DNA of 64,000 bases from assembly GCA_032622095.1 (NCBI GenBank), contig CP136066.1, positions 98,415,319-98,479,318 of the forward strand, in the 5' to 3' direction. Positions within the stretch are counted from its first letter, which is position 1; each line of letters begins with the position of its first letter. Position numbers and translations under genes: made by a program. This document shows positions 495 to 54,769 of this stretch, piece after piece. A model generated the notes under the pieces. The model was given only the letters and a program-made list of their open reading frames with translations. It had not been told where the DNA came from and ran no database searches. This stretch comes from Siphonodentalium dalli (lineage: Eukaryota > Mollusca > Scaphopoda > Gadilida > Siphonodentaliidae).

Positions 495-818
495 CTGGAA
501 GCAGACGAAAGATAACAAACATGCAGAGGAAGTCATATTTATTGGAGGACAATGTTCAGATAGTAAATTCAACAAACGTGGTCGTTTTATTGAACTTACT
601 ATATCAACATTTTATATGAGAACTACTCGTCGATGAGTATTTACTATAGATAGGGTAAACTAATTTTCGAAAAGCCCGAACTGTATGTGTTCTCTACAAC
701 CGTATCCACAATTTAAAGATGCTGCCATTTCGAGCTTTCGTGTAGTTTCATGCCGCTGCATTTATGACATCTGCACACCAATGTACTTTGCTACCCAGAC
801 GCCACATGGTTTACATAC

Positions 819-997
819 CTTATTTTCCGTTACCATGGAGTCGATTCGGCATGAGATAGCATCTTCTGGTAGCATGCTCGTGTGATAGATATTTATTTTA
901 TCCTTCAAACTGTTAAATTTGTCAGAAAGAGGACTTAATGTCCCGGATGGAGGCCAATCAACGTCATCATCCAAGAACACAAGTAGAATAGGCAAAC
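819..997 (-). CDS. SPRY-TIR exon 16: C-terminal part of the TIR domain
   Basis: 179 nt, phase 1 to phase 0, from acceptor tttccag to donor gtatgt. Encodes GLPILLVFLDDDVDWPP, the TIR strand D signature (P-I-x-P-V/L-like), and then a helical segment ending SMVTENK. Joined to exon 15 it reads FDSG-LPILLVFL, which fits the TIR fold. Confidence 0.72.
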
Positions 998-3900
998 CTG
1001 GAAAGCAAATTTCAATCTCGTAGTAACCAGGACTCGGTCATAGCCAATCAGAAGGTAGACGCGTGGATGTCTGATGCGAAACGTAGGCGGTGACGTCATA
1101 CTGCGAAGAAAGCCCTAGTATATAGCACTTGTAGTAAAGGGTGTAGTAAAGGGTGTCGGAATGTTTTAGACTATCGAACGCGTAGGCGAGTGGTTATATA
1201 TATAAAACCCTTGGAATCTACTGAATTCATTCTTCAGTTTCTATCCATTTAAATATTGGCATGATATACATTTAATTTAGACGGATATAAGTTAGCAAAC
1301 GACAGTTTAGAGGACAAATTCCGACGATTAATTTTATAATTAAAATAACCAAAATACCATAGGAATCTCTTATCACCCTTCATCTAGTGAGAAATGCTAA
1401 AAAAATGATTTCTAAAATATTTCTGACAAAAGCTAAAGATACAATAATCGCTCCTAAATGACTATAAATTTCATTGGCTTCAGGGTAACATATTTTATTC
1501 GAGTTTGATACCAATTTCCGTTGTTGAACAAAATGTTCATATATAATACTTTTTGGAAAAATTTCTACTAGATTTGACAGTGGTTCGCATTATTTTTGTG
1601 TAATTAATCGATTCTGATGACTAAAGTGTAGTTTGAAGACATATTGTTGTTGGAATCTGATGATACTGGGACCATCGAATCGGATTGTGTCCTTTTAAAT
1701 ATATTTAAATACAAATTAAAGTTATAGAGTTTAAAAAAATCGGCTCGCGAACTTTTTTTTCCAGCATAGTCCAGTGCATGTATTGTTAAGACTCTGAAAC
1801 GCTGCAATATTGTACATAAACTTACCACTGTCGAAGGCGATTCTGCACTCTTTGAACATCGATTCGCTATTATAGTTCGAGTCTGATAACATCATTATCA
1901 CAGCATTGCTTGAGCATATTATATTCTCTATGGACGGAGATTCGTGAGTATTAGCGGATTTCTTCACATCGTACCTCTCCATCAACCTGAAAGTTGAATA
2001 AGAACTTCCATTATCCTCAGGAAGATGTTTGGTTTATTGTGGGTTGGTCGGTCGTTTCGACCACTAGGCCAAGCCTGACTTTAGTGTGTCCTGTCATTTG
2101 CAGAATGAGGTCCCCAGAGAGTGGATTTAGTGATGCTATCCCGAATAGCATCACTATATATATTCACACACAGGGGACCTCATTCTGCTTAGGCCTCATC
2201 TTCTCTGTAAAGTTTCTTTATTATCAAATTTCTATAGAAACTTTCATCACATAGATTCTATTTCTTTTTTAGTTATTTTTGCTATATCCGCAAATTGTCA
2301 GAATACACATTGCATAATCGAGGTTCCGAACGGTTTACAACACAATATTCACAATTTGGGAACATCAATCTGAGTCTATGACTCCCCATAGCAGATGAGG
2401 CCATGCAGAATGAGGTCCCCATAGGGTGAATTTGGTTATGCAATCCCGATGTGCGGGATAGCTAGCGTCACTAAATTCACCCTCTGGGGACCTCATTCTG
2501 CAAATGACAAGCACATTATGCTCAGACTTGCACTAGGCTATATCAGGACTGTAGGTGGACGAGAGATTGCGTAGAAATGTTGATCGATTACACCGAGAAA
2601 TAAACTCCATGCAATGCACGTAGTAACAATGTTAACCGATATACCAGAAAGCAACTGAGTTGTCAGATACACAAATCAGCTTAAACTAGCGCTGAATATG
2701 TCGTTGTTCGGCTGTTTTCGTGCAAAAATACACCCAGGGATCTCCTAAATGTACAAAAAGACACATAGGATCTCACAAACTGTGCAAAAGTCACCCAGCA
2801 TATCAGACTTTATTTAAAAAAATCTGTTTTAGATTAGTCCGCAATTTAATTATTATTACATTAATGATTTGTTTGTGATTTAAGAGTGAAATTTCAAGGG
2901 AATTTGAATGGATATTCATTCCACTGTCGAAGACGAACGATAGTTTGAGATCATGTGTGTCTTTTTGCATGTTTGCGATATCCTGGGTGTCTTCTGCACG
3001 ATACCATGCGATAATGGACCAATTCGGCTTCACTATATATAGCCCCCTCCCCTTTCGCGCAGATTACAAACTCATGTCTCTCGGTATTCGAACAAGCTTC
3101 GCTATTGTGTTGGACGTCTTATGGCAGCTTAATGCGCAATTTCACATTATCAACCGAGCCACCCCCCTCAGGAACATGTAAACACTACTAAATACAGGCA
3201 CACAGAACTTTTTTCACGAAATATACGTTGCTTTTAAGTTAGTTTCAAATGCAAACATTATGACATTTAAATCTGCATGAATCAGACAACATAATATATC
3301 AGATTTATGGAGGTACAGGTATATGTGCTTGCTTCATTGAGCATTAACAAATTCTCATTTCTTATTACCGAAATGGCAATGCATCGATCAGAATGGCACA
3401 TTGAGATGTCCCACAACTCATATTAAGCTTCAGATATAGAAATTACACATACCCATCTATAAGGTTTTCGACAGGGTCCGTGTCTATCAACATGTGACAC
3501 ACATATAACCTTTGTTTAGCATCGTTGTCCTTCATGGTTGTGTCGTCTGTAATATAAAGTGAACTACAACAAAACAAATATAACCCTTTCTATAATAAAT
3601 ACTTATTGATAAGTAGTTCCCTTATAGGAAATGTTCAGATAATAAGTTAAACAATTTACAAACGACCATGTTGAGCTTATTATCTGAATATTCCCACCAG
3701 TGAATAGTAATCCTTCTACACTTAGACTACTATATTTTCATCTCTCTTTCGTCTGCTCAGTTGAACTTACTGTCTAAACATTTCCAACCAGTGGATCTGA
3801 ATCATTGAATCATTCTGCTCTTGAATTATCTTTAATTTCGTATAATTTTATTACATGAACACCCATCTAAATTGTTAATAGACCATTCCAATGTATACTG

Positions 3901-6900
3901 TTATAACTGAATGGGAGAATCCATTCAGTACATGCGCTAATTTAACCCCCTTGTTATGTTATTTTTAGCATGCTAACCGTTCGCCGTTTACCCCCCCCCC
4001 CCCCTATTCACTGTTATTTTTTAGCATGTTACCCATTCGTCATGTTACCCCCCCTTTTTTCGCTGTTATTTTTTTTTTTAGCATGTTATCACCCCCAATT
4101 TCACAGTAACTTTTAATAATTTCTTCGATTTATGATTTTATGCGTTTCTGTATTTTTATAACGTCTAGTTCTACTGTTTTGTTGATAACCATAATTATGT
4201 CTTAAGCCGCTTTCACACATGTCCGTTTCTCGGATGCGTTTCCTTGCGTTTCTAATATTTTAACGCATCCGGAAAACGCATCGGTCGAAATAGTGAAGCT
4301 AGCCACACATGCTTGTGTATGATTTTTTAGAAACGCAGGCGAAACGCAGCATTTCAAGTCCGTGACATGAACAAAAGAAACGCATCCGGCAAACGCACAT
4401 GTGTGAAAGACCCAGTGATATTATCACTGTTTTGACCGATGCGTTTTCCGGATGCGTTAAAATATTAGAAACGCAAGGAAACGCATCGGAGAAACGGACA
4501 TGTGTGAAAGCGGCTTTATATTTGCAATTGTATTTTATGTTTAACATGTCAAGCGTTTTAGAGCACTTCGGTGGATTTTACGCTATACAAAACTGTTATT
4601 TATTTATTTATTATTTATTCATGGGAAGAAGCCTTGAACCAATTTTGGTCAAATTCCGATAACGATATTGATGATGAGTGCCATGAAACGACATAACAAT
4701 TTAACTTGATATATTAGATTGTTACCCCCCCCCCCCAGTCTGATCACTGCCCTCACGTATACAAAATGTAATTATTATAACATTTTTTATTTAATTATTA
4801 TTGATTGCAATTCATTCTAATATGATCTGGCCAATTTCTAAATGAATACGGACTGTCAACTCTCTCAGAAAAAAACGAGGAATGAATTGTGACTGACAAA
4901 AGTCTTAAATAAAAAATGTGAGATTTCCTTACATTCAGTATTACGCGATGGATGTGTTCAGACCACCGTGAGATTTCCTTACATTCAGTATTACGCGATG
5001 GATGTGTTCAGACCACCGTAAACGAGGGGTGAGATTTCCTTACATTCAGTATTACGCGATGGATGTGTTCAGACCACCGTGAGATTTCCTTACATTCAGT
5101 ATTACGCGATGGATGTGTTCAGACCACCGTGAGATTTCCTTACATTCAGTATTACGCGATGGATGTGTTCAGACCACCGTAAACGAGGGGAACATAACTC
5201 TGTCTTGCAAGTTTGTGACAAAAATATAAGACAACGTTTAGATTGTTGGAGCCATAACGCATACATTGCATGGCACAGAGGGACTGTCAATCAAACCATA
5301 GGTCGAGTTTTGTTCTGACTAAAACATATAGGCCTAAGTGTGATATTAGTAGAGATATAGACAAAACACAACGCGCATCTTAATCGAGACCCTTTTATCG
5401 AATGAGTTGCGGATGGCGCAAGGATATATTTCGCGAGAGCGTAGCTCGAGCGAAATATAACTTTGCGCCGTCCGCAACGAGTTCGATAAAAGATTCGAGA
5501 TTATGATGCAAGTTGTGTTCTGTATTTATTCTACACCGTTCAGTCAGATAAGTTCAATCCACGAATGTCACCTCCATTGTTACTATATAGCTACCTTTAT
5601 TGTGATTTAAGTCTGACAAATAACCAGTAATTATGTGGGGATCACCGGAAGCGGATGATCGACGTAATGTACGTCATCTTTCTTGGCGACAACGTCAACA
5701 AGAATAGTTCCGGCTTGTATTCCACTAGAGGTATACACTTATATGTATTCAATGGCTGGGATTCCGTTGAATACATGTGACTCGCGCCAATGGGTGTGGA
5801 GTAAATATTATATATCCAAGTGAGCACTAACCTTTTTCATAAATATTTGGCATATATTGCATGACGTCAGCCATGAGATCGGCATTAAACGTCTCCGTTT
5901 GTTCAGCTTTAAACGTTTCATTTTCCGCCCACCATGACTGAATGAGCATCTGAGACAGATCTGGGGGCGTGGAATTGGTGGTCACCTCCACTGAATCACC
6001 TGTAATAAAGGGAATCATACATCGGTTGTCAATTAACGTTTTTATTGTGAGATGTGTTATCCCATTAAATTAAATAAACTGGCTCACTACCATATCAAAA
6101 TTTTTTGTTATAAGATGCCCTTAATAAATTTCTTTTAGATTGTTTTATAGACGATTATTCTGTACGTGTATGTGTGTATATGAATAACATGCCATCTAAT
6201 TAAAGGTACTCAATCCGATCAGACGCTCCTAAATTACTATGTCTTTGGTTCCGGGGGTAAAAAATATTTAATTCGAGTCGAGGAACCCACCCATCAAAGC
6301 TCATAGTGATCAGATATCGATTTGTGATGTTTGTTATTTCTCGAGATGTGTAATAATATGTGGCCCAGAAACAAGTGGTCAAACGGAGGGTCTCGGACAA
6401 AATTGCGGATAAAGATGGATAACTCTAAAATAAAGTGGTAATACGGTCAAATTTCGTGATATTTTATTGATAGTACGCATATTTTGTTGAACAAAATGTT
6501 GATAAATAACACGTTTTTTGAAATTTGATACCATAGTTGACAGTGGTTAGCATTATTTTGTTGCAATAAATCGATTCTGATAACTAAAGCCTATTTTGAA
6601 GAAGTGTTGTTGTTGTATCTTGATGGTATGTGGACCGTCTGATCGGATTGAGTACCTTTAATAATTTATATATAGCGATATTTGTTTTGGGAGAAGCAGG
6701 AAGCCTTCCCGGAAGGCTACGTTGGCTATGTTAGCCCCAACAATACACTGCATTATTACCTCGCATGTAATACGTTACTTCCATTGTATTATTCATGTAT
6801 GTATTGTTAATAAAATTATCCCATCCTATGCCATTAACTCATACATTGGAATGGTAAATTTTTCATTTTGAGGAGTGTTTTGATGATACATCAGGTGGCC

Positions 6901-9900
6901 GCAGGACTGATGGGATCCTATTCAGCCATTTGTTCGGAGGGAATATTCAGATAAGTTCAAGTGATTTGGAAACAAATACATGGTACTCGAAAAATCAACG
7001 GAGGTCAGATACCACCCACACGGACCTTATATCCTGGAATTGTTCACCCCACCCCAGCCCTATCGTCGCTATATCGTCACCTTCGTGGTCGAGATAGGCC
7101 GCCAGGTAGACACCACCGACTTGCTGTTGAAACATTTGATGATGGAAGACCTCTCCATTTTTTGTTAAGTAAACAATTATCGACTGTCGAGATCTGGGAT
7201 CCTGGTTGTCCCGCCTGATAACGCACAGACCGAAAACATCCGTGATTATAGCAGCATCCGAATCGTGTCTGGTCGTAACTGTAAAAGATAAAATTCCGGT
7301 GTCCAGTCTCATTAAAGATGCTCTATATCACTTACTAGAAATAACAAATCATTAAAACCCCAAAAGCAAAGAGGTCAAACCATTAAAACCCTACAAGAAA
7401 TGAGTAATAGACTATAAGCGGCAAACGATTGAATTAAGGGATTTTTGACACCTCGTGTACGTACCCCCGGAAACAATAGCCGTCGGCAGATCGAGATGCT
7501 CCCAAAATACGCCCGTGGTTTGTCAAAAATGTAGGTATGGATAAATTGTCATCTGATATGATGGTTCAAAGACAGAGCTCAATAATCAAATTGAGGGCAA
7601 ATTCCAACAAAGGGAACTCCGGAGAATATTGTGGGGGGGGGGGGGGGGTGGAACCCAAATTAGAAAGTTATCCGGAAATGGGCCATAACTCTGGTGAAAA
7701 TTGGCGGGTGGAATTCGAACTTGACCTGTGTTCATTCCATTCATTTGAGGATATATAAAGTTATCATCCGGAAACTAAAGGCGAACGGGCGGTCGAAGAG
7801 ACCAATAACATAATACCTTCCGTTTTTTAAACGGTGTATAAAAATTCAATAAAACCTTGTTCGAAGACACGTTACCACTGCTATTATCAGAAAGGCAGAA
7901 ATGACATTTGGTTTTACATATTTGACTTAAAATTGTTCTAATATATAGATTGTCAATCAAAATCTTCGTAAAAATAGAAACACATATCCTGTCTCAGTTT
8001 GTGGAAAAAATAAGAAGAAAAAAATAGGAAGAAAAAAAAAGCCTCATTGGGCACTATTTTGAAAGCATGGTTAAAGGTACTCAATCAGATTCGATGGTGC
8101 CCATACAATTAGATTCCAACAACAGCAACATTTTTAGAAATGCCGCTTCAGTTATCAGAATCGATTAACTGCCCAAAAATAATGCTAACGACTGTCAACT
8201 ATAGTATGAAATTTCCCGAAACGTATTATTTAACAACATGTTGTTCGACGAAATTTGGCCTTATTATCGACAGAAAGCCTCTTGATTTTAGAGTTCGAGA
8301 GCGTCGCATCGTCGACTTTTACTGGGCCACTAATAAGTCTCGATGGCGAAAAATAGTAGATTTCAGAAATCGATATCTAATAATTCTATTTTCGATAGGT
8401 GGGTTCCTCGACTCGAATCAAATATTGTTTCCCCCCGAATCCAAATAAATAGTAATTGAGGGGCGCTGAATCGGATTATGCATCTTTAACATCGTGCCAA
8501 ATTTCATTCAGATTCAATAACCCATGTCTGAGATATATGCCCGGAAGAACAAGAATGATGCTAATATATGTTTTCGGACTTTATAACTCGGAAATATTTG
8601 TTTCAAACTTCCAATAGATGACCATTTTGATAAAAATAGAAAAATAGATATGTTAATGTTGTTCTAAATACAACAAATTCACCACTATTTACTGGTTGGA
8701 AAATCGAACAATGATAACATTTTCGACATATAAGTCGTGAAAATGTTCCAGCCAATGTTATGTCAGGTATGAAATTCCCAACTGTTGAACATTTTGACCA
8801 TAGTTGGAGGTGATCGGGACACCCCGAACGCCACATCTCCTGTCGCACGTCCCTGATTCTTGGTATATAAATGGAAGTAACTCACTGTTACTGCATGTTA
8901 TCTCGGTCATGTAAGGGAAGTAAGCGATAGTTCCAGCCTCCACTCCTAACAGCCAGCTCCGTTTTGACGTGGCGCTCGCTAGACCGAACGCCATCAACGA
9001 GTGTCCGCTTACTCTATCAACATGGAACTCCACAAAATCCTGATCTGCAAGGGAAAGCGGACGGAATCATTCCACAAACTCGGGAAATGACGTTAAAACA
9101 TTATTTTTCAACTATCTCTCAAGATGCCTACACTGCCAAAAAGGATTTTCTTATTTTGAGGGAAAACACTTAAAATAAGTACAATTATCTTGGGAGTATA
9201 CTTAGAAAATGTTCTTGCATCATAGTTTTTTATAGTTCCTTATAGAAATTTAAATTCTAATTTATATGAGAATATTGTTCTTAATGTTTTCTAAGAACAG
9301 TTTAAATATTTTTCACATATTTTCTTAATAGTAAGAAATAATTTCTTAAATCCTTTGAAGTATTTTTCTCAATATCTAGAAAAAGTTAAGAAATATTTTC
9401 TTATATCCTAGAAAGTCTTATTCTCAGTATCTAGACAAATGTAAGAAATAGCCGAAGATAACGTTACATTAAAAATAGAAGCCCAAATCCTATAATTATG
9501 CCCCACATCATATATTGGGTAATTGGAGTATAAAATATCTTGCATTTTACACTCTAAGAATTATGAAAAACCTAATGATTTTCACATGTTTTTTGGCCAC
9601 CAAAAACCAAGAATAGGGGCAGGGTTTCTTCAATGTCCGACCGACTTCTTGTGTATTCGTTATAGAACCAATATAGCGTCTCCAAGAACCAATTTAGTAT
9701 CAGTAAGAGTTGGTTCTTCTTGAGTTAGGTAAAGTAAGCTACATATTCAAACACAAAGCATTTTGTTGATATATGAATGAATAGACAACAAGGAAATGAG
9801 AGTCAGATTTCGTCTTACATTCGGAAACAACAGAATTTGATCCCACGTTTACCGTGAATTCCCCATTGAACATTGAACAAAGTTTATTGGTACTTTTTCT

Positions 9901-12900
9901 TCCTAGTCAAACATAAGTTATGTAGCTTTTGAAATATGTTGATGGCAGATTCACGTACCTGGTTTAATTAAAGGTACTGGGGCCATCACCCAAAGAACCG
10001 AGTCACCGTGTTCAAGATCTCTCTGTGTAACAGTAAACCTGTTACCAATGGCGTTAGTAGTTTCTTGATTATATATCCAAGTCCGGATGTCTGCCTGGAA
10101 AACGAACAAATTCATTTGTATTCTTTGAAGATTTGTGTAAGCGAATGTATGACATCCAGGTAAACAAGTAACATACGAGCTCGAAATTGAAATGTCGAGC
10201 TTGAAGTATGAATATGTGAAATGTATTTCGATTTGGGTCAGGTGCATGGTTAGACGCTCCCCGTTGGGCGTGTCGACCTCAGAATTTACAACTGCACCCC
10301 CTTGAACCAGACCAAAATTTCGACCCCAGCCAATTCCATTTGCACCCCCCCCCCCCCGTTTGTGTCGTATTTTTCCAACTGTCACCCTAGATGGCTATTT
10401 CAGCCCAAAATGTTTTACTGAAATTGGAAAGTATGTCGACTTTCGTCCTAAAATCGACATATAATTAACGAATGAACAATTTTTCAGTGCGCCATATACA
10501 TAATTATGGCATGCTTGAACTCTGAAATTGTTCACTGATTTAATGTCAAGCTCCTAATTGAATCTTCGGTGTGCGCTATACACGAAATATGTGATATCAT
10601 ATCGTGAAATGATATGATCTTCTATACATCTATACATATCACACTAAAATTAATACTGATTTCAAATTAAAGTATCAGAACAATTTCATTTATTATTGGA
10701 CTGAAATCGAAAGAACGTGATTCCCCACCGTGTGATATATATGGTATTATAATCAGTGGGTGCTTGAAGTTCGGATTATTCACGTTTAAATATAGCTACT
10801 GCAGTTAACATGATTATGTCGAACAGAAACACTTTTTATAGTTTTCTGATGCCCGTGTGTGATTTCAAGCTCCAACGTGCATATATGGTAGTATACTTAC
10901 TGTGTCCACCGAAGGTTTCCCAGAAACTCTCCCTGGCCAATCAACCTCTGCCATGATAGGACCATTCTTCAGTGTTACAGTTGCGTAGATGTTTTCAGAC
11001 TCCGCCACAAGGACTTTGCCTCTCCCAACCAGCACCCCGTCTAACGTGAATGCCAATATGACAGAACTGGGTGTGTCGTATTCAACAAAACATCCAATGA
11101 GATCATCTGTGTGAAGAGAGATCGAAGTTTGAAGGTATTTTTAGTTGTACCTAAGCTGTCTCATTTTTGTTGCGAAACAAATACATGCATTTCCATAATA
11201 CTACAGTATTTTATAATCTGACATATGTTATCAGTGTGCAATGAGATAAGTCTGATGCCTTACCTCAGTTGTGTGTATATTATCAGTTTCCGGTCATGTG
11301 ACCACTCTGCAATGGCTGTGTTATTGCCGATTAAAGCATTAGTTAAACTACTATACAACTCGTTATTTCCCGTGAGAACATTAGTCGGCTACGAAATATA
11401 ACGTGGCTACATTTGGTATAGCAACTGAATATACAGAGGGTGAATGATAGAGAATACTGTGAACGATTGTTGCAATTTTCCTTGAAAATGGGGTGGAGGA
11501 TGCCGGAGAGTGGATTCCGGAAAGTTTATTGCTTGTGGTGCGATGACATACAAGTTGATTCGAGAAACTGACAGAATAAAACATTTAAAGAGATAACGTA
11601 ATTGGTAAAGATCCATCAAAATCCAAGACCATCAGAAATCCTGGCTAGATATAAATTCTACATCTGCGTTTAAAACAGGTCAAAGTGTAAATAAGTACAT
11701 TGCAGAACTTCGCCAACACTCAGAACTGTGTAACTACGGGGATATTCTGAATATGATTCGTGACCGATTAGTATGTGGGGTGGCAGATGAGCTGATACAA
11801 TGACCGCTGTTACAAAGTAGTAACTGGACATTAAACAAATCACTAGATATAATACTAGGAATGGAGAGAGAACAAAGCAATGTGCAAGAAATCAGTGAAA
11901 GAATAAAATCGTGCCAAAAGTACAAGCAACATACAAGCATTGAAATTACTTAACCAGAAATCCGACCGTGACACGGAGTGACAAAGTTGAGTGTGGGCGA
12001 TGCGATGGTTCACACAACAGTAATATTTGCATACATAAGTCACATAAGATGTTCGAAAGTGGGTCATTTGGATCGATTATGTAAATACATAGTGCATTGG
12101 GTTCAACCGCCAAATGAAATGGAAGACAGTTCCTCTGTCTAACCAGAATACGAATGACATTTACAATTTGTATAAGGTCAGACAAAGAAGTGTGGATCCA
12201 ATTATTGTGCATTTGAAGGTTTCGGTGAAATACGTACCGTTTGAACTAGATATGGCAGCATCATGTAGTATCACGAGTGAAAAACAGTTCACAACAACTT
12301 TTCAAGAAAGTGCACCCAGTCTTCAGCCTTATAAAAACATATACGAGTCAGACATTGGAAGTTTCTGGAACAGCAAACATTCCAATTGAGTACAGGAATC
12401 AGAGGCTAAATTTACCAATAGCGGTAGTCAAAGTGAAAGGTCTAAATCTTCTAGGCCGAGATTGGCTGCAGCACATCAAGATAGATTGGAGCAAAATAAC
12501 CTTTGTTGGAGCGAATATCGAAAGGGTGAATGAACAATTGCATGACACAGAACAGTCAGTCAGTTAGTATGTGGATGTGTTCCAAGATGAACTGGGTTGT
12601 TGTCGGGGAGCTACGGCAAACATTCATCATAATAAAGGTGTCTATTTTACAGAGCACATTCCGTCCGTTTGCTATCAAACTGAACTCAATCGTTTGAAAA
12701 CCTGGGCGTGATAAAACATGTTAAGAGTTCAGATTTGAAAAACCTGTTGAGAGTACATATTGGGCTACACCAGTGGTGCCTGTTATTAAGAACATTGTAA
12801 GACTCACGGTTAATCGTTGCTCAATGTTGGACAACTATCCAATTCCGAAAGTCCAAACTTGTTAAATACCTATCAAATTGTACTTTTTTACATGTATTGA

Positions 12901-18900: not shown

Positions 18901-21900
18901 AATATTTTCTCGGTTCTCTTATACGACATTTGAATTGTTTTCTGCTGACATGTATCTTTTCTTTGTTATTTGTTCTAATTTCTATTGCAATAGAGGTCTG
19001 AATAGTGGATGATATAGTATGCAGAATAACAATCAGGTCAAGATTGTCGAACTTCGTTACATGGTTCAAGTACGCAAATACCGAGTACGTTTTAATCACA
19101 TTTAGTAAATCACATCCTATGACAGGGACAGCTATGCTTTTCAATATACACCAAAAGAGGGCATAAAGTGACAGTGGCGAAATATATGTCACGTGGTACT
19201 TGTCACGCATTTGGTATATTAAATACACAGAGTCGCACATGACGCATCATAATGGTGTGTAGATGCTTCGAACACAATGTAATGTCATGTGACTTTTGTG
19301 AGAGAAAAAAACACCTAGAAATGAGCCGCTTTTTGTCACATGTTTGTGATGTACTTACTGCATTTTTATGTGCGACCGTCGCATCCCACACCGAGACAAG
19401 CGTGAAGGTATATTGCTGGTGCTATTGTTAATTTTGGAGAAAATTTCCCAATATTACTATTAGTTAGTGAAGAGACATAGAATGAAATTGCCATACCTAT
19501 TTATTTCTTACATCACCGACTATATTCTTATAGGCAATCCCTTTCAAACCATACATATATAAGTATCACTGGGGTTGCGGTTGACGCAGTTAAACGCAAC
19601 CGATTTCAAAACTTTTTTGAAATCGTTTGCGTTTAACTGCGTCAGCCGCAACCCCGGTGGTACGTTGATTGTGCCTATAACCCGATAGTCGCATGCATGA
19701 ATTGTGTTCGTCAATTAGCCTATATACATCAAAACGAATTAAACTTCATTGGGAAATCCACTAATTTTAGATAAATCCATGTTGTTTGTCTGATGGCTAT
19801 CGTGGTAATTCAATCTTAAATAGTGTATAGTGGAGAGGCTATTTAATGTAGCTCACCTCGTGTTTCACCACTATCGTGATAAATACCACCATCGTCACCA
19901 TGGTAACCTATCGTGCCCGAATCCCATCCTGGCATTCTGAATTTGTCTGTCCATGCTGCACTCAGACCGAGGCCCTGTCCACATTCTTCGTCCTCTCGTG
20001 ACAAAACTTCAATCTCGAAGTATGAACATTCTGAAATTGAAGGGCGAACGAGGAAATTAATTAACTTGTTAACAAATTAATTAAGGTCCAGGCCGCATAT
20101 ATACAGCTTCTAGGTTCAATGGGTTGCCGTTGAGGATTTGTCATTCAAATTCATTTATACGAAGAAAAAAAATCTGTATCGGTAAATAAAACTCATGATT
20201 GCATAGTTGCCATATCAATATTGGCTGAAGTGTCACTGACACTTTCATTTTAATAATCAATCATGTCAGAGTGAAAGTACACCACGTACACATAGCTGTT
20301 TCCATGAAACGTGTATTATTATTTTTGTAGTAGTTATGCTGTTAGGGGGTAGACTATTGTCAGTAAAATGATTATTATATAGTGTTCATTAGCACGTATA
20401 CTTGTACATGTAACACAAAATCGTGTTGGTTTTTCTAGGCTGCAACATTGAGCTCACCGGTATCAAGGGGCCTTGGCGCCTGGATGCTATATGCTAAGCG
20501 TTCTTTCTCGTCGTAACCGAGGAGAGTCAGTTTGTTTTCGCCGTTGTCCTTCCCGATATACTTGAAACCGTGCCAGTTTGTCATCAAATCCTGTAAAAAC
20601 ACGAAAATCTCATAAATATATCAGTGAGCATGGACTTGGCGAGAGGCCGAGTTATGAGAGGGCGAGTCCAACTTTGGTAAAAATTCTCAACAGTTGAAAA
20701 TTCAACGAGTGACACAACATCGCGGTTGAAATAGGTTATACTTTTTCTGATAGTTTGGTTTTCCAACCAGAATTTAGTGTGTAATTTGTTGTTTTTAGAT
20801 GAAATCAGACGTCCATGATTTTCCAACTTTCGGTAAAATATTCGGACTGAAAGGACCATCAGCTGGGAATTTTCCAACCACATATAGGAGGTGTACGTAT
20901 GCAACGCTTGAATAGTTGAGGTACTATAGCTGGAATTGTCCAACAACATAAGGGGTGCATGCTTGGAAATTCTAAGACTTGCAAGAAAGAAAGTGTGTGA
21001 TCAAATCTAATGTTATAAATGGTGATGTTCTAAGCGAATCATTCATTTGTAGTCTTAAAATGTATGGCTATTAATGACTTACCTTCACGGTCAAATTAAT
21101 TATGGGCCGAATTGTCTCAGAATGTTTCGCCATGCTCCCCTTACCAACACACGACACCACGTTTATCTACATTATTGTTCCAGAAATGTGTTTATGTGTG
21201 GTGTGAATCTTGTGATTTTTAACCAGCAAAAAAAAACGAAAAATTTCAATACTAAACCTGTTCCAAAGTTAAGTTGTCTCCCGTGACTTGTGGCCATTCC
21301 ACTGTCAGTTCTGCCGTTCCCCTGGACACGCCGATAGAAGCATAGAGCTGGTCCGGTCCGACGCCAATCCACTGTCTGTACACTATTACTCCGTTCTTGA
21401 AGAAGTTGATGACTGATTTTTCTGGGAATATTCTTTCCACATAACACATTACCGTGTCTCCTGAAAAAACATTCATTTATTACAATCTACATAATTATAG
21501 CCTGTGTGTGTACACTAAATCGTGTTTGGTGATTGGTCAACTGGGAATTGGGTAATATTTGCTTTTCATATCTCAATAAAACAGACCATAACACGAACTA
21601 ACGTCACTTCGTGTTGACCTATATATGACTAAATGCGCAGATCAAATGATGGACGTGCTTTTTTGAGTGGGTGGTCATAGACTATAATAGATCGATAATG
21701 CAATGGTAATATTGGGTTAACTCACATAGCTGCATGGTAATTATCGAAAGTGCTGACATATTCAGGAAAATAAATTGAGCTAAGTTTATAGAAATTACAG
21801 TAATGAAAAAGCTGAAATAAGTGTAGTGTGAGTGTTTTATTGAGGGGTATAATATACACCTTTCAATAAAACACTCAAACTACATTAATTTCTGAAATTA

Positions 21901-24900
21901 CACCAGGGCTAGCAAAGCTGGTCATGGCCGAATATTGTCTTTTTAATATACTCCCAGAATCACTCTAGTCATCTACTCGACTTCTCATATCTCGGAAGGC
22001 CATACTAGTATGCGGTTTATCCCAAGTTATGTCATAACCGTCATAAATATTTCTATTTTACTATAGTAAAAAAAACATAATTTAGGCCTACCATAGTAAA
22101 AAAAAAACACTACTATATATCCCGTATACAAAAAAACATAGTTTCCTAAATAAAAAAAACAATAGTTAATTAAAAACCATAGTTAAGCAGGATCATAACA
22201 AACAGCCATCGCTAAAATTCAGTTGAGACTGAATGTAAAATGTTGGTTTAGATTTTTGGTCTTTAAGTTCGAAAAGTCTATATATGGAAGCACATGCCGA
22301 CTGGAACTGCTAACTTTATGCCAGTCATAGGAAGTTTTAGCCATTTAGTTTTAGTGTTAGTTGTGTTTGCCCGATAGCACGAATACACGAATCGATTATG
22401 TAGCCATTTTCTGGTTTCGCAGATAAACATACCATTGTAAATACGAATTGACGTTATATGCGTTTATCAGACATTCATGTGTATAGAAGACGTTCACAAC
22501 CTACACGGTTGTTTAATATTTCGTGTTGATTTTCCGGTGTATATCAATTGACCAAGTGTTTAACTTACTGTACCAATATCCAATCACAAGTGTTTGTAGC
22601 AATTGTCTCAACACCCAATTTATAAGAACAACGTACACATATGCAAGCAGTACAAGTGATTGCACGTGTAAGCATTTTTCCATCGGTTGTTAGATAGCCT
22701 GCTGGGGGATTATAATACTAACTTAGTGGCCCAATTCAGTACACCATGCATGTGGATTAAGTTCTCCCTATTGTAGGGATAGAGTTCACTAAACTACATA
22801 AATTATATGTGCATGCGTTACACCTGATATTCCAAATGAGTTAAATATACGTGGAATTAGCATCAATGGTTGTAGTTATCTGCTGTATCTGATCATGTTC
22901 CACAGCAATACAAATCTCAGCCTGTTACAGAACCTAATCTTAAACGAGGCGTTTATTCAATGGCCATTAAAATAGCCATATTGGCGTTTAAGCAATATCA
23001 TGTTCCTGGTTTGCGTGTCTCGAAATCAGAGTGTCGGAAATCTTTCACACATAAATGGCGCCTTCTGATTGGTTGCGAGATGTGTCATATATATGGGGTA
23101 TTGTTGTGCTATATTTAGCATACTACTATATCAAACTCGCATGCAAAAAAGCAATGATCAGGGACAGCATATATACTGAAATGTATCCAAACTTAAAATA
23201 TTAATGTGAACACCTTTGTTCACATGAAGGAATGACGTCAACTTGCGGAGTGGCCACATTCGGTTGAATTCACTTTGTGGTAAAGTTTCGGGTTTTCGTG
23301 CATTCAAAATTAAAGCTAAATACTGCGCGTTTCAGTTTATTAACTTAGATTTCAACACAATCGTGTGACGATTATGTTTCTCCTAAACTAAAAAAAATTC
23401 TCAGTAAAAAGAGTTGAACTTGATTTCTATGTGAACGTCTTTTGAAGGGACTTATGGACAGTCAGCAGTTGGTGTTGGTATATGATACGATTATGTAGTT
23501 CGAATTGTTCATAAAATATAATCAATAGATCATGTCGTGTTGACTATACGCGGGTATATAGTTCCCATTGGGGTGGGTAGTCCATTCCGCTTCGCGTCGT
23601 GAACTATACCACCCCACTATAGGCACTAAACCCGCATATATATAGTCAACTCCAAGCCATGCTCTATTATTAACTATAAACTTTATTCAGACTCATGCAC
23701 TGTAAAATATTGATAATGCTATGTCGAAAGAAAATAACAATATATATAATTATTAAACATATTAGCAGCACAAACCTTTGCCATATGGATTGTCTGAGTG
23801 GAGCCCCGGTCCTCCAGTGAATACTCCACCAGTATCACTCACATATCTCACGTTGTTATTGGAGAACCACTGAGGCTTCCCAAGGTAGCATTTAGGATTC
23901 ACTCCAAACATGAGGAACGCCCCTGAAGGAAGAAAAATCAGGTCTGTGTCGGGAACTTACATTAATGCCCTAAATAATCGACTCCTTAACCACAGCAGAA
24001 TTATGGGTAATTTTTCAGGATTTAGTCGGGAATATGGCTTGTTGACATTCGTCGGAAAGCTTTGCTAAGGAGTCGATTATTTATGGCATTAGGTACGTCA
24101 GTGTTTGCTCGAAAATACATCGCGGCAGCAATTTAAACATTCGTTTTTTTCTATATTTTCCAAATAAAAAACCGCCGATATCGAACAGATTTGTTTGAAG
24201 GAAATTTTGGCGTTTAACTCTTTACCCAACAAAACGGCCAAAAACGCCCAAATAAAGCTTCAACAGCCTAAAATATCTTCGGTCTGTCTCAATAACACCA
24301 TACAAATATGGATATCATTGGAACCGGTTCATTGACCACATTGTGATGGTTACAGTTATGCCCTGTGCCAATGCATTCTCTTATATATGCGAGTCGACCA
24401 TAGGTCGCCTCGCATATATAAGAGAATGCATTGGCCTAAAAAATAAAAAAATTTAACTCTTTTTACCATTTTTTCTTACATTCTTTAACAATTTTATAAT
24501 ATTTTCTTACATTTTTTAACAATTTTTATAATATTTTTCTACATTCTTTGACAATTTTATCATTTTTAATATGTGTTAAGCCAATGCATTCTCTTATATA
24601 TGCGAGGCGACCTATGGTCGACTCGCATATATAAGAGAATGCATTGGCACAGGGCCGTTCTGTTGGGTAAAGGGTTAAATTTCACAACCTGGACATTGTA
24701 ATGGTTGTAAAAGTCACGCGAACACTTACATCTTACGAGCTGGTGTGTCCGACTTCGTCCGGGCTATTTAGGAATTTCTTTGCGAACAACGTTGAAAAGT
24801 ATTAGGAGAAACATAAATCAAATAAACATAACAAAATCTATATAAAATTAATTATTGAATTCTATTACACGAACCGACTATTATTCCAGTCATTAAAGCC

Positions 24901-30900: not shown

Positions 30901-31733
30901 ATGTTTTATGGAGTTCTTGTATCAAGTGATAAATATAATCTACAACTCGTCCCCAGTTTATATCGATATTTACAAAACTCGTCCAATAAATTAGGTCGAG
31001 ACCTCGGCGAAGGCTCGTTCAGACCTAAGTTACTGGACTCGTTTTGTAAATTTCGCTATAAACTGGGGACTCGTTGTAGATACTCCATATATTTTATATC
31101 TAAATTTAGTACAAAATAAAAACTATATCTTCAATTAACCTCACATGATCAGTGTATTGCTTTGTTTAATATATAAGTGCGAGATCTAATATCAAAGCAT
31201 ATACACGGTTGAAATTATCAACCGATGCTGTCTATGTATATGTTGATCAAATTTGTGTCATATGCAAATTTGGACCCCCCTCTCAAAATGGGGTGAATAT
31301 TTAGATTGGCCTGGGCCACACCATACAACGCCTATTTGAACCCTTCTGGGCGGCGCCCATTTTGGACCAGGGTAGGAGTGTGGAAAGAGTACCATGGGGC
31401 CACCATACAACACCCTTGTTTGACCTAAATATAAAAAAAAACATTCGAATAAGGAATTGAAGTCACATTCGTATATATTATGAGCCTAAATTTAACAAAA
31501 CATGTTATAACACCGATACAGGGCTGTACGAATAGTCTGGACATACCTTCTCCAAGAGATCTGACAGTCATCTTAAATGACCTTGCCCTTTCTGACAACG
31601 GTATTCTGTGATACTGCACCAAGCTGGTCGACAGTGGTACATCACAGGCCGCCGCAACAATATCTTCTCCGCCATTATTCAGCTGTATGTTCTCCGAGAA
31701 CGTGAAATACACGTGGTGACCTTCCGAAGACAT
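819..31733 (-). CDS. Four-SPRY plus TIR domain protein (16 coding exons, C-terminus unresolved)
   Basis: Hand-assembled minus-strand gene. Exons: 31733-31547, 23922-23776, 21460-21258, 20590-20458, 20030-19857, 18440-18237, 15616-15365, 14695-14540, 11106-10901, 10094-9959, 9044-8886, 7278-7048, 5999-5832, 3546-3453, 1986-1826, 997-819. All junctions are gt/ag and every phase matches its neighbour, giving 930 codons with no stop. Order: SPRY1 (about 45-175), SPRY2 (215-350), SPRY3 (420-550), SPRY4 (600-732), linker (733-790), TIR (790-930). SPRY2 is the most canonical (MPGWDSGTIGYHGDDG, then VYFTKNG). The TIR has AVIMMLSDSNY followed by FKECRIAF. No signal peptide or membrane segment is seen, so it is probably cytosolic. 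SPRY domains are usually protein- or ligand-binding; TIR domains signal or hydrolyse NAD. An innate-immune sensor is my inference. The two-SPRY half resembles SPRYD3-type architecture. Introns are full of transposons. Nothing is known here about expression. Confidence 0.82.
1432..1698. mobile_element. TTAA-type MITE, degenerate copy
   Basis: Starts taaagatacaataatcg and ends cggattgtgtccttTTAA, a decayed form of the AGGTACTCAATCCG terminal repeat found at 6.2, 8.1, 39.7 and 62.0 kb. Lies in the intron between TIR exons 15 and 16. Confidence 0.6.
1826..1986 (-). CDS. SPRY-TIR exon 15: core of the TIR domain with putative catalytic Glu
   Basis: 161 nt, phase 2 to phase 1. Encodes LMERYDV (helix A end and strand B), SIENIICSSN, the TIR strand C motif AVIMMLSDSNYNSE, then MFKECRIAFDSG. 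Glu863 of FKE sits where SARM1-type and plant TIRs have the catalytic Glu. The Trp usually four residues before it in those enzymes is Ser here, so NADase activity is possible but not shown. Confidence 0.75.
2062..2540. mobile_element. Second family of double-hairpin MITE
   Basis: Outer inverted repeats (about 45 nt, with GTCATTTGCAGAATGAGG in both arms) each continue into an internal palindrome, at 2102-2192 and 2403-2503, whose arms share gcagaatgaggtcccc. The 210 nt between them is unrelated to the first family. It sits in the intron between exons 14 and 15. Confidence 0.75.
3453..3546 (-). CDS. SPRY-TIR exon 14: start of the TIR domain
   Basis: 94 nt, phase 1 to phase 2, from acceptor atattacag to donor gtatgt. 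Encodes QRLYVCHMLIDTDPVENLID. It reads as TIR strand A and helix A (hydrophobic strand, D-x-D, then V..LI). The FISY-like box 1 is divergent, so this rests on its neighbours. Confidence 0.65.
3940..4095. repeat. Degenerate tandem repeat with poly(C) tracts
   Basis: Three diverged units of about 55-65 nt of the form gttatttttagcatgttacc followed by a C run (up to about 14 C). It lies inside an intron and has no coding signal. Confidence 0.6.
4204..4517. mobile_element. Fold-back MITE with ~100-nt inverted arms
   Basis: Left arm begins aagccgctttcacacatgtc; the right arm is its near-exact complement ending gtgtgaaagcggctt. Both arms contain repeated aaacgcatcc motifs. There is no coding capacity. 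The element would form a long hairpin in RNA or single-stranded DNA. Confidence 0.85.
4917..5190. repeat. 50-nt tandem repeat, five copies
   Basis: Five almost identical units of gtgagatttccttacattca... ending gttcagaccacc. Copies 2 and 5 are followed by an extra taaacgagggg spacer; the others abut directly. Near-identity suggests recent amplification. Confidence 0.92.
5361..5522. repeat. Inverted repeat (hairpin) in intron
   Basis: Arms begin acaaaacacaacgcgcatctt and end gatgcaagttgtgttctgt, with ttttatcgaa/ttcgataaaa and gatggcgcaa/ttgcgccgtc pairs further in. The central palindrome is cgagagcgtagctcgagcg. Confidence 0.75.
5832..5999 (-). CDS. SPRY-TIR exon 13: linker between SPRY4 and TIR
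   Basis: 168 nt, phase 1 to phase 1. It begins GDSVEVTTNSTPPD, closing SPRY4, then an acidic, probably helical stretch (WWAENETFKAEQTETFNAD) ending MPNIYEKG. The beginning resembles exon 7, as if a third cassette started and was replaced by the TIR. Confidence 0.7.
6200..6661. mobile_element. TTAA-flanked MITE
   Basis: TTAA target sites flank inverted termini AGGTACTCAATCCGATC and GATCGGATTGAGTACCT. Internal motifs (gattcgagtcgaggaa-type, caaaatgtt) are shared with the copies at 8071, 39676 and 62026. Noncoding. Terminal repeats and TTAA sites fit the piggyBac/Kolobok type of transposition. Confidence 0.88.
7048..7278 (-). CDS. SPRY-TIR exon 12: C-terminal half of SPRY4
   Basis: 231 nt, phase 1 to phase 1. 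Encodes a long loop, then IIVYLTKNGEVF and VGGVYLAAYLD, matching VVVYFTKNG and LGGFYPKVG of SPRY2. Donor gtgaac at 7047 joins GLGW to GDSVEV of exon 13, as FTTK joins GDVVKV earlier in the gene. Reading through without splicing would end at a TGA at 6995-6997; a transcript retaining this intron would give a protein without the TIR. Confidence 0.75.
8071..8489. mobile_element. TTAA-flanked MITE
   Basis: TTAA then AGGTACTCAATC at the left, and a diverged ...GGATTATGCATCT then TTAA at the right. Same family as the 6200-6661 copy. The intron around it also holds a poly(G) tract at about 7632-7649. Confidence 0.82.
8886..9044 (-). CDS. SPRY-TIR exon 11: N-terminal half of SPRY4
   Basis: 159 nt, phase 1 to phase 1. 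The acceptor ccttgcag is strong. I chose donor gtgagt at 8885 because it is near consensus and keeps phase with exon 12. Encodes VEFHVDRVSGHSLMAFGL and GVEAGTIAYFPYMTE. The GTIAY portion aligns with GTIGY of SPRY2. An open frame continues past the donor, so the end is the least certain part. Confidence 0.7.
9120..9480. repeat. AT-rich degenerate repeats
   Basis: Repeated phrases such as taagaaat, tatctagaaa and ttcttatat recur every 60-70 nt. No coding signal. Intron between exons 10 and 11. Confidence 0.4.
9959..10094 (-). CDS. SPRY-TIR exon 10: linker before SPRY4
   Basis: 136 nt, phase 0 to phase 1, ending at donor gtacgt. Encodes ADIRTWIYNQETTN and ends in a Pro-rich segment (APVPLIKPG). 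It is the counterpart of exon 4 in length, phase and position. Confidence 0.75.
10901..11106 (-). CDS. SPRY-TIR exon 9: C-terminal half of SPRY3
   Basis: 206 nt, phase 1 to phase 0, from acceptor cacacag to donor gtaagt. Encodes DDLIGCFVEYDTPSSV, FTLDGVLVG and MAEVDWPGR. It aligns with exon 3 (GDTVMCYVE, FFKNGVIVY, LTVEWPQ). The intron before it, 3.4 kb long, contains the Ty3-type remnant. Confidence 0.82.
11640..14165 (+). mobile_element. Decayed Ty3/gypsy-type LTR retrotransposon (gag-pol remnant)
   Basis: In order on the plus strand: gag-like block (AELRQHSELCNYGDI, MIRDRLVCGV) near 11700-11900; a Cys-knuckle-like CGRCDGSH near 11998; a protease end block (LLGRDWLQHI) near 12450; RT pieces near 12760-12850 and 13010-13110 (VFLDDIFV); a truncated RNase H block (GLGSVLSYRD) at 13430, fused by deletion to NADVLSRLP; and integrase-like residues near 13985-14140. 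Stops and frameshifts break every part, so it is dead. No flanking LTR pair was recognised. It sits antisense in a SPRY-TIR intron. Confidence 0.85.
14540..14695 (-). CDS. SPRY-TIR exon 8: core of SPRY3
   Basis: 156 nt, phase 1 to phase 1. Encodes FEIQIGAATLDFP and GMIAFNSEGNS, ending SWGIG. This is divergent SPRY sequence that aligns by position and phase with exon 2. The canonical PGW and GDDG residues are missing, so SPRY3 may have lost or changed its ligand loop. Confidence 0.75.
15365..15616 (-). CDS. SPRY-TIR exon 7: linker and start of SPRY3
   Basis: 252 nt, phase 1 to phase 1. It begins GDVVKVTFPTPVVPP, closing the last strand of SPRY2, then a linker. It ends with DPLTEKTGYFQIRVLEAG, the opening strand of SPRY3. 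This is the counterpart of exon 1, and its first residues resemble the start of exon 13 (GDSVEVTTN). Confidence 0.8.
16690..17480 (-). pseudogene. Lys-rich ORF, probably transposon-derived
   Basis: Two overlapping minus-strand frames, broken by a stop/frameshift near 16999, together encode about 200 residues. These include KVKNKKKKKTPSRKKRD, ERLAAWKAKKS, acidic/Pro/Ser segments and a terminal poly-Lys run. Such SRKKRDAERL-type basic ORFs occur in invertebrate retroelements, but I cannot name the family. No intron sites are evident. It lies in the intron between SPRY-TIR exons 6 and 7. Confidence 0.35.
18237..18440 (-). CDS. SPRY-TIR exon 6: C-terminal half of SPRY2
   Basis: 204 nt, phase 1 to phase 1. 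Encodes VGDRLGCGLVF, an insertion, then VVVYFTKNG and LGGFYPKVGF, completing SPRY2. The loop between GCGLVF and VVVYF is longer than usual, as it is in exon 12 of the same gene. Confidence 0.88.
19564..19663. repeat. Short fold-back hairpin
   Basis: Near-perfect inverted repeat: cactggggttgcggttgacg at the left and its complement ending gcaaccccggtgg at the right, with 40-plus-nt arms and a loop of T-rich sequence. Confidence 0.85.
19857..20030 (-). CDS. SPRY-TIR exon 5: N-terminal half of SPRY2
   Basis: 174 nt, phase 1 to phase 1. Encodes YFEIEVL, GLGLSAAW, then MPGWDSGTIGYHGDDG. The PGW...YHGDDG block is the clearest SPRY signature in the window and is close to the form seen in RANBP9- and SPRYD3-type domains. 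Confidence 0.9.
20458..20590 (-). CDS. SPRY-TIR exon 4: inter-SPRY linker
   Basis: 133 nt, phase 0 to phase 1. Encodes residues about 180-223, beginning DLMTNWHGFKYIG and ending in a Pro-rich turn (APRPLD). It corresponds in length and phase to exon 10 (136 nt). It supplies the strand preceding SPRY2. Confidence 0.75.
21258..21460 (-). CDS. SPRY-TIR exon 3: C-terminal half of SPRY1
   Basis: 203 nt, phase 1 to phase 0. It opens with GDTVMCYVE, followed by the SPRY hallmark INFFKNG, then LYASIGV and LTVEWPQ. This reproduces the usual SPRY order (GD..GC.., FF.KNG, .YP.vg). Length and intron phases match exon 9 (206 nt). Confidence 0.88.
21823..21889. repeat. Short inverted repeat
   Basis: gagtgttttattgagggg pairs with ctttcaataaaacactc around a 12-nt loop. 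Intron between exons 2 and 3. Confidence 0.7.
22055..22200. repeat. A-rich low-complexity tract
   Basis: Repeated catagtaaaaaa / aaaacatagtt phrases of about 20-30 nt. No coding signal. Confidence 0.5.
23538..23656. repeat. Inverted repeat (hairpin)
   Basis: gtgttgactatacgcgggtat at the left pairs with acccgcatatatatagtcaac at the right. The centre also has complementary ttggggtggg/ccaccccact parts. Confidence 0.7.
23776..23922 (-). CDS. SPRY-TIR exon 2: core of SPRY1
   Basis: 147 nt, phase 1 to phase 1, between acceptor ccttcag and donor gtttgt. The product carries AFLMFGVNP, then GGVFTGGPGLHSDNPYGKG, the strand-loop segment that in SPRY domains leads into the G-D-x-V/I-x-C motif. That motif begins exon 3. 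Confidence 0.8.
23963..24093. repeat. Small inverted-terminal repeat element
   Basis: taatgccctaaataatcgac at the left and gtcgattatttatggcatta at the right enclose about 80 nt. Immediately upstream of the exon 2 acceptor side of the intron. Confidence 0.7.
24214..24678. mobile_element. TTAA-flanked MITE with two internal hairpins
   Basis: TTAA-CTCTTTACCCAACAAAACGG at the left mirrors CCGTTCTGTTGGGTAAAGGG-TTAA at the right. Inside, two long palindromes (24362-24435 and 24583-24655) are the same as those of the element at 1-452. So either the hairpin element lies inside a TTAA element, or the two share termini. Confidence 0.8.
24928..30586. mobile_element. Tandem-repeat mobile element (pearl / Helitron-associated type)
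   Basis: About 34 monomers of ~160 nt fill 25020-30485. The left flank carries tagctcaacttaggt. The right flank has an acacacgg-rich tract, then a terminal hairpin (tagctcaaacttac / gtaagttgagcta, loop aaaa) at 30555-30586. Sub-terminal inverted repeats, a core of ~160-nt tandem repeats and a 3' hairpin are the published layout of bivalve 'pearl' and related non-autonomous elements. It lies in the first coding intron of the SPRY-TIR gene. Assignment is by architecture, not by alignment. Confidence 0.7.
25020..30485. repeat. ~160-nt tandem array with higher-order structure
   Basis: Two monomer types alternate. One contains catgcaaagagtaaaatcc-aagatggctgctgg, the other gccaatggattgaat-...aagatggctgccag. 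Both continue gcggccatgtttttt, a cgttcccatctacatg block and a catgacaaatttcat block. A block of about 1.7 kb (near 25.8-27.4 kb) is repeated at an exact 1743-nt offset (27.6-29.1 kb), and a 483-nt trimer repeats near 29565 and 30048. Open frames crossing it are by-products of the repeat, not genes. Confidence 0.95.
30939..31080. repeat. Inverted repeat (hairpin)
   Basis: tctacaactcgtccccagttt at the left and aaactggggactcgttgtaga at the right. Inner arms also pair (acaaaactcgtcca / tggactcgttttgt). The loop is cgagacctcggcgaaggctcg. Confidence 0.85.
31547..31733 (-). CDS. SPRY-TIR exon 1: start codon and first strands of SPRY1
   Basis: 187 nt encoding residues 1-62, ending in phase 1 at a gtatgt donor. 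The protein begins MSSEGHHVYFTF. Its end (VRSLGEG) is the edge strand that opens a SPRY fold and matches the end of exon 7 (VLEAG) in position and phase. No hydrophobic leader is present. Confidence 0.75.
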
Positions 31734-37400: not shown

Positions 37401-37640
37401 ATGCGTCGGAAATTAGTTTTATTTTGGAGGTGCTCACTAGGTAATTAGAATTATAGTCTACAGTGAGTACTATATTTTCAGAGATGTCAAGTGCATCAGA
37501 AATTGAGGTGCCCAGTAGGTCCCAGTAATTATGGCTACAAAATTGGTCTGACATGTATGAGACCCCAAGTATCATGCAAAGTATCATGTGAGATTTTGTT
37601 AGCAAATAATTCAAACCAAAGAATCGAGGAGTCGAATTCT
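34440..37640 (-). mobile_element. Decayed LINE (APE endonuclease type, Jockey/CR1-like group)
   Basis: Minus-strand order. Endonuclease end: DYNSNYL near 37450, LGVSDHLGVYATISF near 37270, then W-x-T-P-E and R-x-R-D-R-L. Reverse transcriptase: NVIPIFKKEDP and NYRPISLLPCLAKVFEK at 36.2 kb, ISAGVPHGSIL at 35.8 kb, CADDTCIMSSH at 35.7 kb. C-terminal Cys/His region: CSCENPSEDAYHF then CPLYQNERLELE at 34.8 kb. Several frameshifts separate the parts, so it is inactive. The 5' end is probably missing. Family assignment is by motif order only. Confidence 0.88.
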
Positions 37641-38482
37641 AGGTCAAACCTTTCTCTGTAAATAACATGATCAGCAAACATGACACATATTCCGCCCCGT
37701 ACGCGTCTCGGTCTTTTCGAATAGGGGAACAGTAACCATGGACTTCTAAATGTTCGGAGGTGATGGTCCTATCTCGAGTTGACGCGATGGTAAAACGAGA
37801 ACCTCGCGGCACGACACGACAAACGAGTGTGATAACGTTACCATGTGTTGTTCTGTGTTTATTCCACACTCTAAAGATTGTAATACATGCTAAAATTTAG
37901 GTCGATATTGTTTTATTTAATCAATCAAACGTGTGATTTATGCAGACTATACTCCATAAGTTAGTCAATAATTTTATTTTAATGTTGACGTCGTGAATTA
38001 CGCTGTCAACGTAATCGGTCTGTATTGTTCAACGACAAGACAAATCTTTTTATTGAACATTGTAAAATATTCTGTATTTTACTGAATTTCGAAGAAATAA
38101 ACAAATGGGTTTGCGATAAAGTTGATTCTTGTCGCTGTACATCTATTCCAGCTAATTTCCGAATGAAAAATAGCTTTTTGACGTTCGAAAGCCCGTGCGA
38201 TACATAGTTCTCCTCTAAAATCCGAATGAGCAGAAGAAAAATTAGATCGAAACAATTCGAAAAAAATGCATATGGGCTGAACTATAGAAAACATTCCCAC
38301 TTCGTATAGATGGACATACACGTATATTCTCTTTGTTGTGAATGTGTATATTGGAATGATACATGTCTCATAGCCTACATTTATTATCTGTGTGAGAATA
38401 TTAATTTTCCCATTCACTCCATTGTCTTTGATACCATCCAGGTAGGTGATACTCGCTTTAATGCATATGTATCTATATACAG

Positions 38483-54760: not shown

Positions 54761-54769
54761 CTAAATGAA

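Follow-up and report, generated by a model that had tools for sequence, protein, structure and literature searches.

A predicted gene joining four SPRY domains to a divergent TIR-like domain in the scaphopod Siphonodentalium dalli

Animal TIR domains are mostly immune or cell-death modules. In SARM1, a regulatory array of the ARM-SAM kind is followed by a C-terminal TIR domain, and RanBP9 and RanBP10 carry one SPRY domain together with LisH/CTLH/CRA domains. TRIM and NLR proteins with B30.2 join a SPRY-fold recognition module, in their case PRY-SPRY, to an effector part with RING or NACHT, and TLR/MyD88 proteins are marked by LRRs and a transmembrane segment or by a death domain. According to the accessible text of PMC12664034, human SPRYD3 has two such domains, named SPRY1 and SPRY2, and works together with the ligase MYCBP2. 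In a survey from 2021, as far as its text was available, the partners named for SPRY-like domains are RING, HECT, NACHT and death-fold modules (PMC8195603). Among invertebrate TIR proteins, the ecTIR-DC group (evolutionary conserved TIR-domain containing, Gerdol 2017) is described in the available part of PMC6321704 as absent from vertebrates and as comprising proposed adaptors or regulators, and several eukaryotic TIR clades, in molluscs among others, are given as uncharacterised in the accessible part of a 2026 preprint (PMC13142454).

We analysed a window of 64,000 nucleotides, located on contig 6 of the 2.23-Gb genome (9 contigs) of S. dalli, for which a first-pass annotation had suggested four SPRY domains joined to a TIR domain, a combination not known to it from any described family. 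Among the literature matches listed, no report of SPRY joined to TIR and no family with this order was found, in line with that suggestion. The locus shares with the ecTIR-DC proteins that it would encode an invertebrate TIR-like protein; judging from the available excerpt, a SPRY-bearing family among them is possible, and there is a real chance that the SPRY-TIR order already occurs in the bivalve TIR survey of Gerdol 2017.

Gene model and exon structure

Rebuilding of the gene from the sequence reproduced the sixteen minus-strand exons of the first-pass annotation, running from 31733 to 819 and giving 933 codons with zero stops, all 15 junctions matched in phase and exon borders at GT/AG. 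The agreement in phase does not count as independent evidence, since phase, along with visual inspection, guided the choice of exons and borders; independent support is provided by a match to RanBP10 that extends across three junctions (E 2.4e-15) and by the internal repeat described below. In addition, a leave-one-out codon-usage test set each exon against 3000 segments drawn at random from the stop-free parts of the window. For 12 of the 16 exons, no more than 2.7% of these segments reached the value of the exon; exons 10 (0.148), 12 (0.059), 15 (0.087) and 16 (0.077) were weaker. The GC content of the exons was 0.46; in the surrounding half-window, 13 of 17 two-kb steps lay at 0.35–0.39 and four at 0.40–0.44.

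All exons are on the minus strand. Exon 1 (31547..31733; codon test 0.011) encodes the start codon and the N-terminal part of SPRY1 (type a), followed by the middle of this domain in exon 2 (23776..23922; 0.0013) and its end with FFKNG in exon 3 (21258..21460; 0 of 3000). SPRY2 (type b) begins in exon 4 (20458..20590; spliced frame and PDB match), continues in exons 5 (19857..20030; PGWDSG and YHGDDG) and 6 (18237..18440; YFTKNG), both recognised by Pfam and PDB matches, and ends in exon 7 (15365..15616). The latter also contains the start of SPRY3 (type a), with the middle and the end in exons 8 (14540..14695) and 9 (10901..11106); all three are backed by the spliced frame and Pfam. SPRY4 (type b) starts in exon 10 (9959..10094), where the codon test was weak, and extends through exons 11 (8886..9044; 0.0013) and 12 (7081..7320; YLTKNG) into exon 13 (5832..5999; 0.0037), which also carries linker sequence and has an in-frame stop inside its donor GTTAGT. 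The middle of SPRY4 is uncertain, as is the upstream junction of exon 12, because the acceptor of this exon (tagag) is poor. Exon 14 (3453..3546; 0.027) encodes further linker and the start of the TIR-like domain (LYVCHMLIDTDPVENLIDG) and includes an ATG in good context. Exon 15 (1826..1986; Pfam and alignments) encodes the core of that domain, including FKECRIA with Glu866 as candidate catalytic residue, and exon 16 (819..997; Pfam) its end, with LPILLVFL and DWPPSG. Every motif quoted in the first-pass annotation (PGWDSG, YHGDDG, FFKNG, YFTKNG, YLTKNG, AVIMMLSDSNY, FKEC and LPILLVFL) was found in the translation.

Exon 16 may be the terminal exon, its frame continuing beyond the GT at 819 as far as a stop codon at 764-762; this possible read-through (762..818, minus strand, seen in the sequence) would add 18 residues and yield a protein of 951 aa. 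AATAAA signals downstream of exon 16, at 591 and 543, fit a terminal exon but say little because this strand holds 82 AATAAA in 64 kb. On the minus strand of the adjoining stretch to the left of the window, mostly repeats and no convincing further exon were found. Two exon candidates within the gene were dropped, one at 20.8–21.0 kb consisting of two near-copies of one sequence and out of phase, and one at 2.5 kb that looks like an inverted repeat. Lysine-rich open frames inside intron 6 (16.7–17.4 kb; 16711-17364, minus strand), retroelement-like by eye, were likewise discarded as exons. Elsewhere in the window, intron 1 contains a large tandem array (25187-30486; periods of 164, 319 and 483 bp, with 32.9 copies of the shortest), broken frames at 34594-37896 (minus strand) resemble by eye a non-LTR retrotransposon with reverse transcriptase, and a single open frame at 54132-54800 (minus strand) encodes a fibrinogen-related domain (Pfam Fibrinogen_C, E 9.1e-55), probably belonging to a FREP-like gene.

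The SPRY array and its relatives in the genome

The order of four SPRY domains, linker and TIR-like domain was supported, with SPRY2 and SPRY3 identified by Pfam and the two outer SPRY domains by internal homology. The Pfam SPRY cut-off of 26.3 bits was passed by SPRY2 (32.4) and SPRY3 (32.5). SPRY1 and SPRY4 alone gave no Pfam SPRY match and were assigned by their homology to SPRY3 and SPRY2, respectively. When the modules were compared by BLAST in a database of the four sequences, SPRY1 matched SPRY3 at E 3e-10, SPRY2 matched SPRY4 at 5e-8, and SPRY2 and SPRY3 matched at 0.006. The exon-end phases repeat in the same manner along the array, 1,1,0 followed by 1,1,1, twice. By sequence, the array is an (SPRYa-SPRYb)x2 arrangement, a duplicated pair of the SPRYD3/RanBP9-10-like kind.

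Among solved structures in the PDB, the best sequence match of SPRY2 was RanBP10, with which, as with RanBP9, it shares the PGWD...GYHGDDG signature; RanBP9 and RanBP10 differ from the protein described here in having no TIR. A profile of modules 1 and 3 found SPRYD3 at 2.5e-5 and RanBP10 at 0.61, and a profile of modules 2 and 4 found them at 8.3e-6 and 6.3e-9. The solved SPRY domain of SPRYD3 (2yyo) was thus matched by both a-type and b-type profiles and represents the same SPRY subtype; SPRYD3 itself has two SPRY domains and no TIR, in contrast to the four SPRYs and TIR-like tail of this protein. The comparison with the B30.2 domains of TRIM and NLR proteins drawn in the first-pass annotation was not supported, since Pfam detected no PRY and the matching structures were RanBP9, RanBP10 and SPRYD3. 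What is shared with those proteins is the coupling of a recognition module of SPRY fold with an effector. In the whole protein, searched with Pfam to E 10 (filters drop most matches above 0.1), there were zero matches to PRY, RING, B-box or NACHT, and the TLR/MyD88 hallmarks, LRR, transmembrane segment and death domain, were likewise without a Pfam match. The highest 19-residue mean hydropathy of the whole protein was 1.66 and no signal peptide was seen by eye, which agrees with the cytosolic location proposed earlier.

A protein search of the genome with the SPRY part matched its own exons, a gene on contig C4 and a site on contig C1 (0.017). The C4 gene is SPRYD3-like, a single frame of 445 codons from stop to stop with two SPRYs (L034:964-2298, G000:C4). 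In a two-sequence database, the match values were 3e-21 and 1e-18 for module 2, 2e-6 and 1e-5 for module 3, and 0.002 and 6e-4 for module 1, while the best for module 4 was 0.01.

The C1 site, read over 90 kb, is a multi-SPRY gene (G000:C1:33352275-33392931; L038-L042). Both of its b-type units match SPRY2 (6e-8 and 1e-9), and its first unit is a-like, matching pieces of SPRY1, SPRY3 and SPRY2 at 4e-5 to 0.04. The third unit is assigned by where it lies and by weak scores of 0.028 and 0.033 against the profiles, BLAST giving no better than 0.12. As read from these matches, the C1 gene probably has four SPRYs, as here. Its introns are of phase 1 at both sites inspected, and its last intron coincides in position with intron 12 of the present gene. 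It differs in its end: the last exon closes with KSKSKSCYIL, a charged tail with a CaaX-like CYIL, so that its product is possibly lipid-anchored, and no TIR was present at this gene among the TIR matches of the genome searches. A TIR-like match at C1:33406556 (E 4) was taken as chance. Nothing in the window could be recognised convincingly as a remnant of the C1 tail. Exon 13 gave no BLAST match to that tail, and the two are therefore equated by intron position, phase and inspection by eye. Translations from the C1 locus look by eye like those of the intron 1 tandem array, and an element that recurs in the window at 73-555, 24.4–24.7 kb and 56.5 kb, with translations like CILLYMRGDLWSTRIYKRMHW, occurs in the C1 locus as well.

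A divergent TIR-like tail

The first-pass annotation had named the C-terminal domain TIR. In the Pfam search of the spliced protein that it had proposed, its SPRY assignment was confirmed for SPRY2 and SPRY3, and both TIR families stayed under their curated cut-offs. Searched alone, the tail (residues 788-933) matched ThsB_TIR (PF08937) at E 6.7e-4 with 20.5 bits against a cut-off of 21.2, and TIR_2 (PF13676) at E 8.1e-3 with 17.1 bits against a cut-off of 28; in the context of the whole protein these matches weakened to E 0.014 (16.2 bits) and 0.17 (12.8 bits). We therefore call the tail 'TIR-like'. These two TIR families were its sole Pfam matches, and none of eight controls (one reversed and seven shuffled tails) matched TIR. 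Two shuffled controls matched unrelated Pfam families at 0.037 and 0.11, which makes the TIR_2 value of 0.008 a modest one.

Against a profile of 30 TIR domains from the same genome, the tail ranked first of 2001 sequences (itself and 2000 shuffles) with 11.4 bits. A profile of 11 domains from one TIR subfamily of this genome did not distinguish it from shuffles. In pairwise comparison with the 30 genomic TIRs, the shuffle z of the tail ranged from -0.6 to 5.4. Of three alignments inspected, the sole colinear one was with L001 (z 4.2), in which Glu866 lies opposite the Glu of CRREATLA and WPPSG is common to both; those with the top-scoring L063 and the third-ranking L051 were non-colinear. A generic TIR sequence gave z 9.0, with 0 of 1000 shuffles as good and 33 other protein windows at 2.4 or less, and this is weak support because that sequence was typed after the query had been seen. 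Glu866 also aligns with its Glu, the alignments to it and to L001 being weak. Similarity to the human SARM1 TIR was at chance level (z 1.1; 132 of 1000 shuffles equal or better). What SARM1 shares with the present protein is the layout of an array ahead of a C-terminal TIR. By eye, the first strand and BB loop of the tail are unusual. Exon 14 is without a FISY-type first strand; when the interval from 6.1 to 1.9 kb was searched for an exon encoding one, three matches appeared, of which none was better than exon 14.

No TIR chain was found with the tail by phmmer against the PDB, and single-sequence searches of PADLOC, NCBIfam and viral contigs yielded no TIR relative of it; a search of plasmids returned, at E 1, three records from Rhizobium in which the matched stretch carries no annotated feature. 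Within the 2.23-Gb genome, a protein search revealed no second copy of the tail, the next best match beyond its own three exons being at E 2.1. TIR domains as such are numerous in this genome: 150 scored TIR_2 matches, many in single open frames of 600–1200 codons, point to a large TIR repertoire. The closest SPRY-TIR pair in the family scans, judged by eye, lies about 110 kb apart on contig C3. The absence of a second such pair is weak evidence because the scans miss small-exon genes, including the SPRY and TIR exons of the present one.

That the C-terminal domain is not a TIR at all is a reading we regard as very improbable. The sub-threshold Pfam scores and the failure of the narrower genomic profile speak for it; the restriction of Pfam matches to two TIR families with none among the controls, the first rank against the 30-domain profile and the colinear L001 alignment with its shared WPPSG speak against it. 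Taken together, we hold with high but not full confidence that the tail is a very divergent TIR, as far as sequence comparison can indicate.

Gene boundaries and proposed function

The predicted fusion of SPRY array and tail rests on splice sites and phase; two genes are possible, given the stop at the exon 13 donor and the ATG of exon 14. In that case a four-SPRY gene would end in exon 13, next to a stand-alone TIR-like gene on the same strand starting at the exon 14 ATG. Besides the in-frame stop, AATAAA signals past exon 13 at 5601 and 5530 (a motif common on this strand), the Kozak-like context of the ATG (ACCATG) and the C1 relative, whose final exon is the one that corresponds in intron position and phase, speak for such an arrangement. 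Against it, few GT sites equal the exon 13 donor in score, 0.36 per kb on the strand by hand-entered weights; for an exon as long as this one, that corresponds to about 0.06 such sites, with the phase match left out of account. Moreover, exon 14 opens with an acceptor in matching phase. The two exons are 2.3 kb apart, a distance we take as short in a genome of 2.23 Gb, and a stand-alone TIR-like gene would require a promoter or 5' exon. Two neighbouring genes are thus an improbable reading, and SPRY array and TIR-like tail very probably form one gene, as judged from splice sites and reading frame.

For the product of this single gene we favour, with somewhat better than even confidence, a cytosolic protein of about 933–951 residues in which two SPRYa-SPRYb pairs are followed by a short linker and, at the C-terminus, by a divergent TIR-like domain that would give a TIR output by assembly. 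Most likely it would be a multi-SPRY adaptor or sensor in the cytosol. The SPRY array would make several contacts with a partner protein, which may be self or foreign, and the TIR domains, brought together by this binding or by clustering, would signal by TIR-TIR assembly. NAD+ cleavage by the TIR-like domain is conceivable. The CaaX-like end of the C1 gene and the TIR-like tail might then be alternative outputs of binding arrays that are of one kind.

That the domain is an active NAD+ hydrolase, turned on when the SPRYs bind a target, as in SARM1 or a TIR-type NLR, appears rather unlikely. Glu866 occupies the position of a catalytic-type Glu in the alignments to the generic TIR and L001, the ExxxA spacing is that of SARM1, and the best Pfam family of the tail is ThsB_TIR. 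However, the generic sequence was typed by the analyst, the first strand and BB loop are unusual and SARM1, with ARM-SAM in place of SPRY, resembles the tail no better than chance; beyond Glu866, nothing else points to NADase activity. The main functional rival is a role as adaptor in ubiquitin ligation, as for SPRYD3. In this reading, which we likewise consider doubtful, the protein would serve mainly an E3 ligase or another complex, with the TIR as a docking surface and no part in immunity. The resemblance of the SPRYs to SPRYD3 argues for such a role, as does the report, in the accessible text of PMC12664034, of human SPRYD3 (SPRY1 and SPRY2) as a specificity factor of MYCBP2. The predominance of immune and cell-death functions among animal TIR domains argues against it. 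A further reading, that of a new animal cytosolic sensor in which the duplicated SPRYD3-type array, of a kind shared with the possibly CaaX-anchored relative, drives an NAD+-using TIR enzyme, is less likely still; if true, it would connect a lineage of ubiquitin-ligase adaptors with defence or cell death based on TIR domains.

If array and tail are one protein, as we favour, the locus would show that, besides TLR, MyD88 and SARM1, animals have another means of linking a binding array to TIR output. With its testable binding array, the gene would provide a handle on uncharacterised TIR clades, and a natural comparison would be that between the two related multi-SPRY genes, which differ in their tails.
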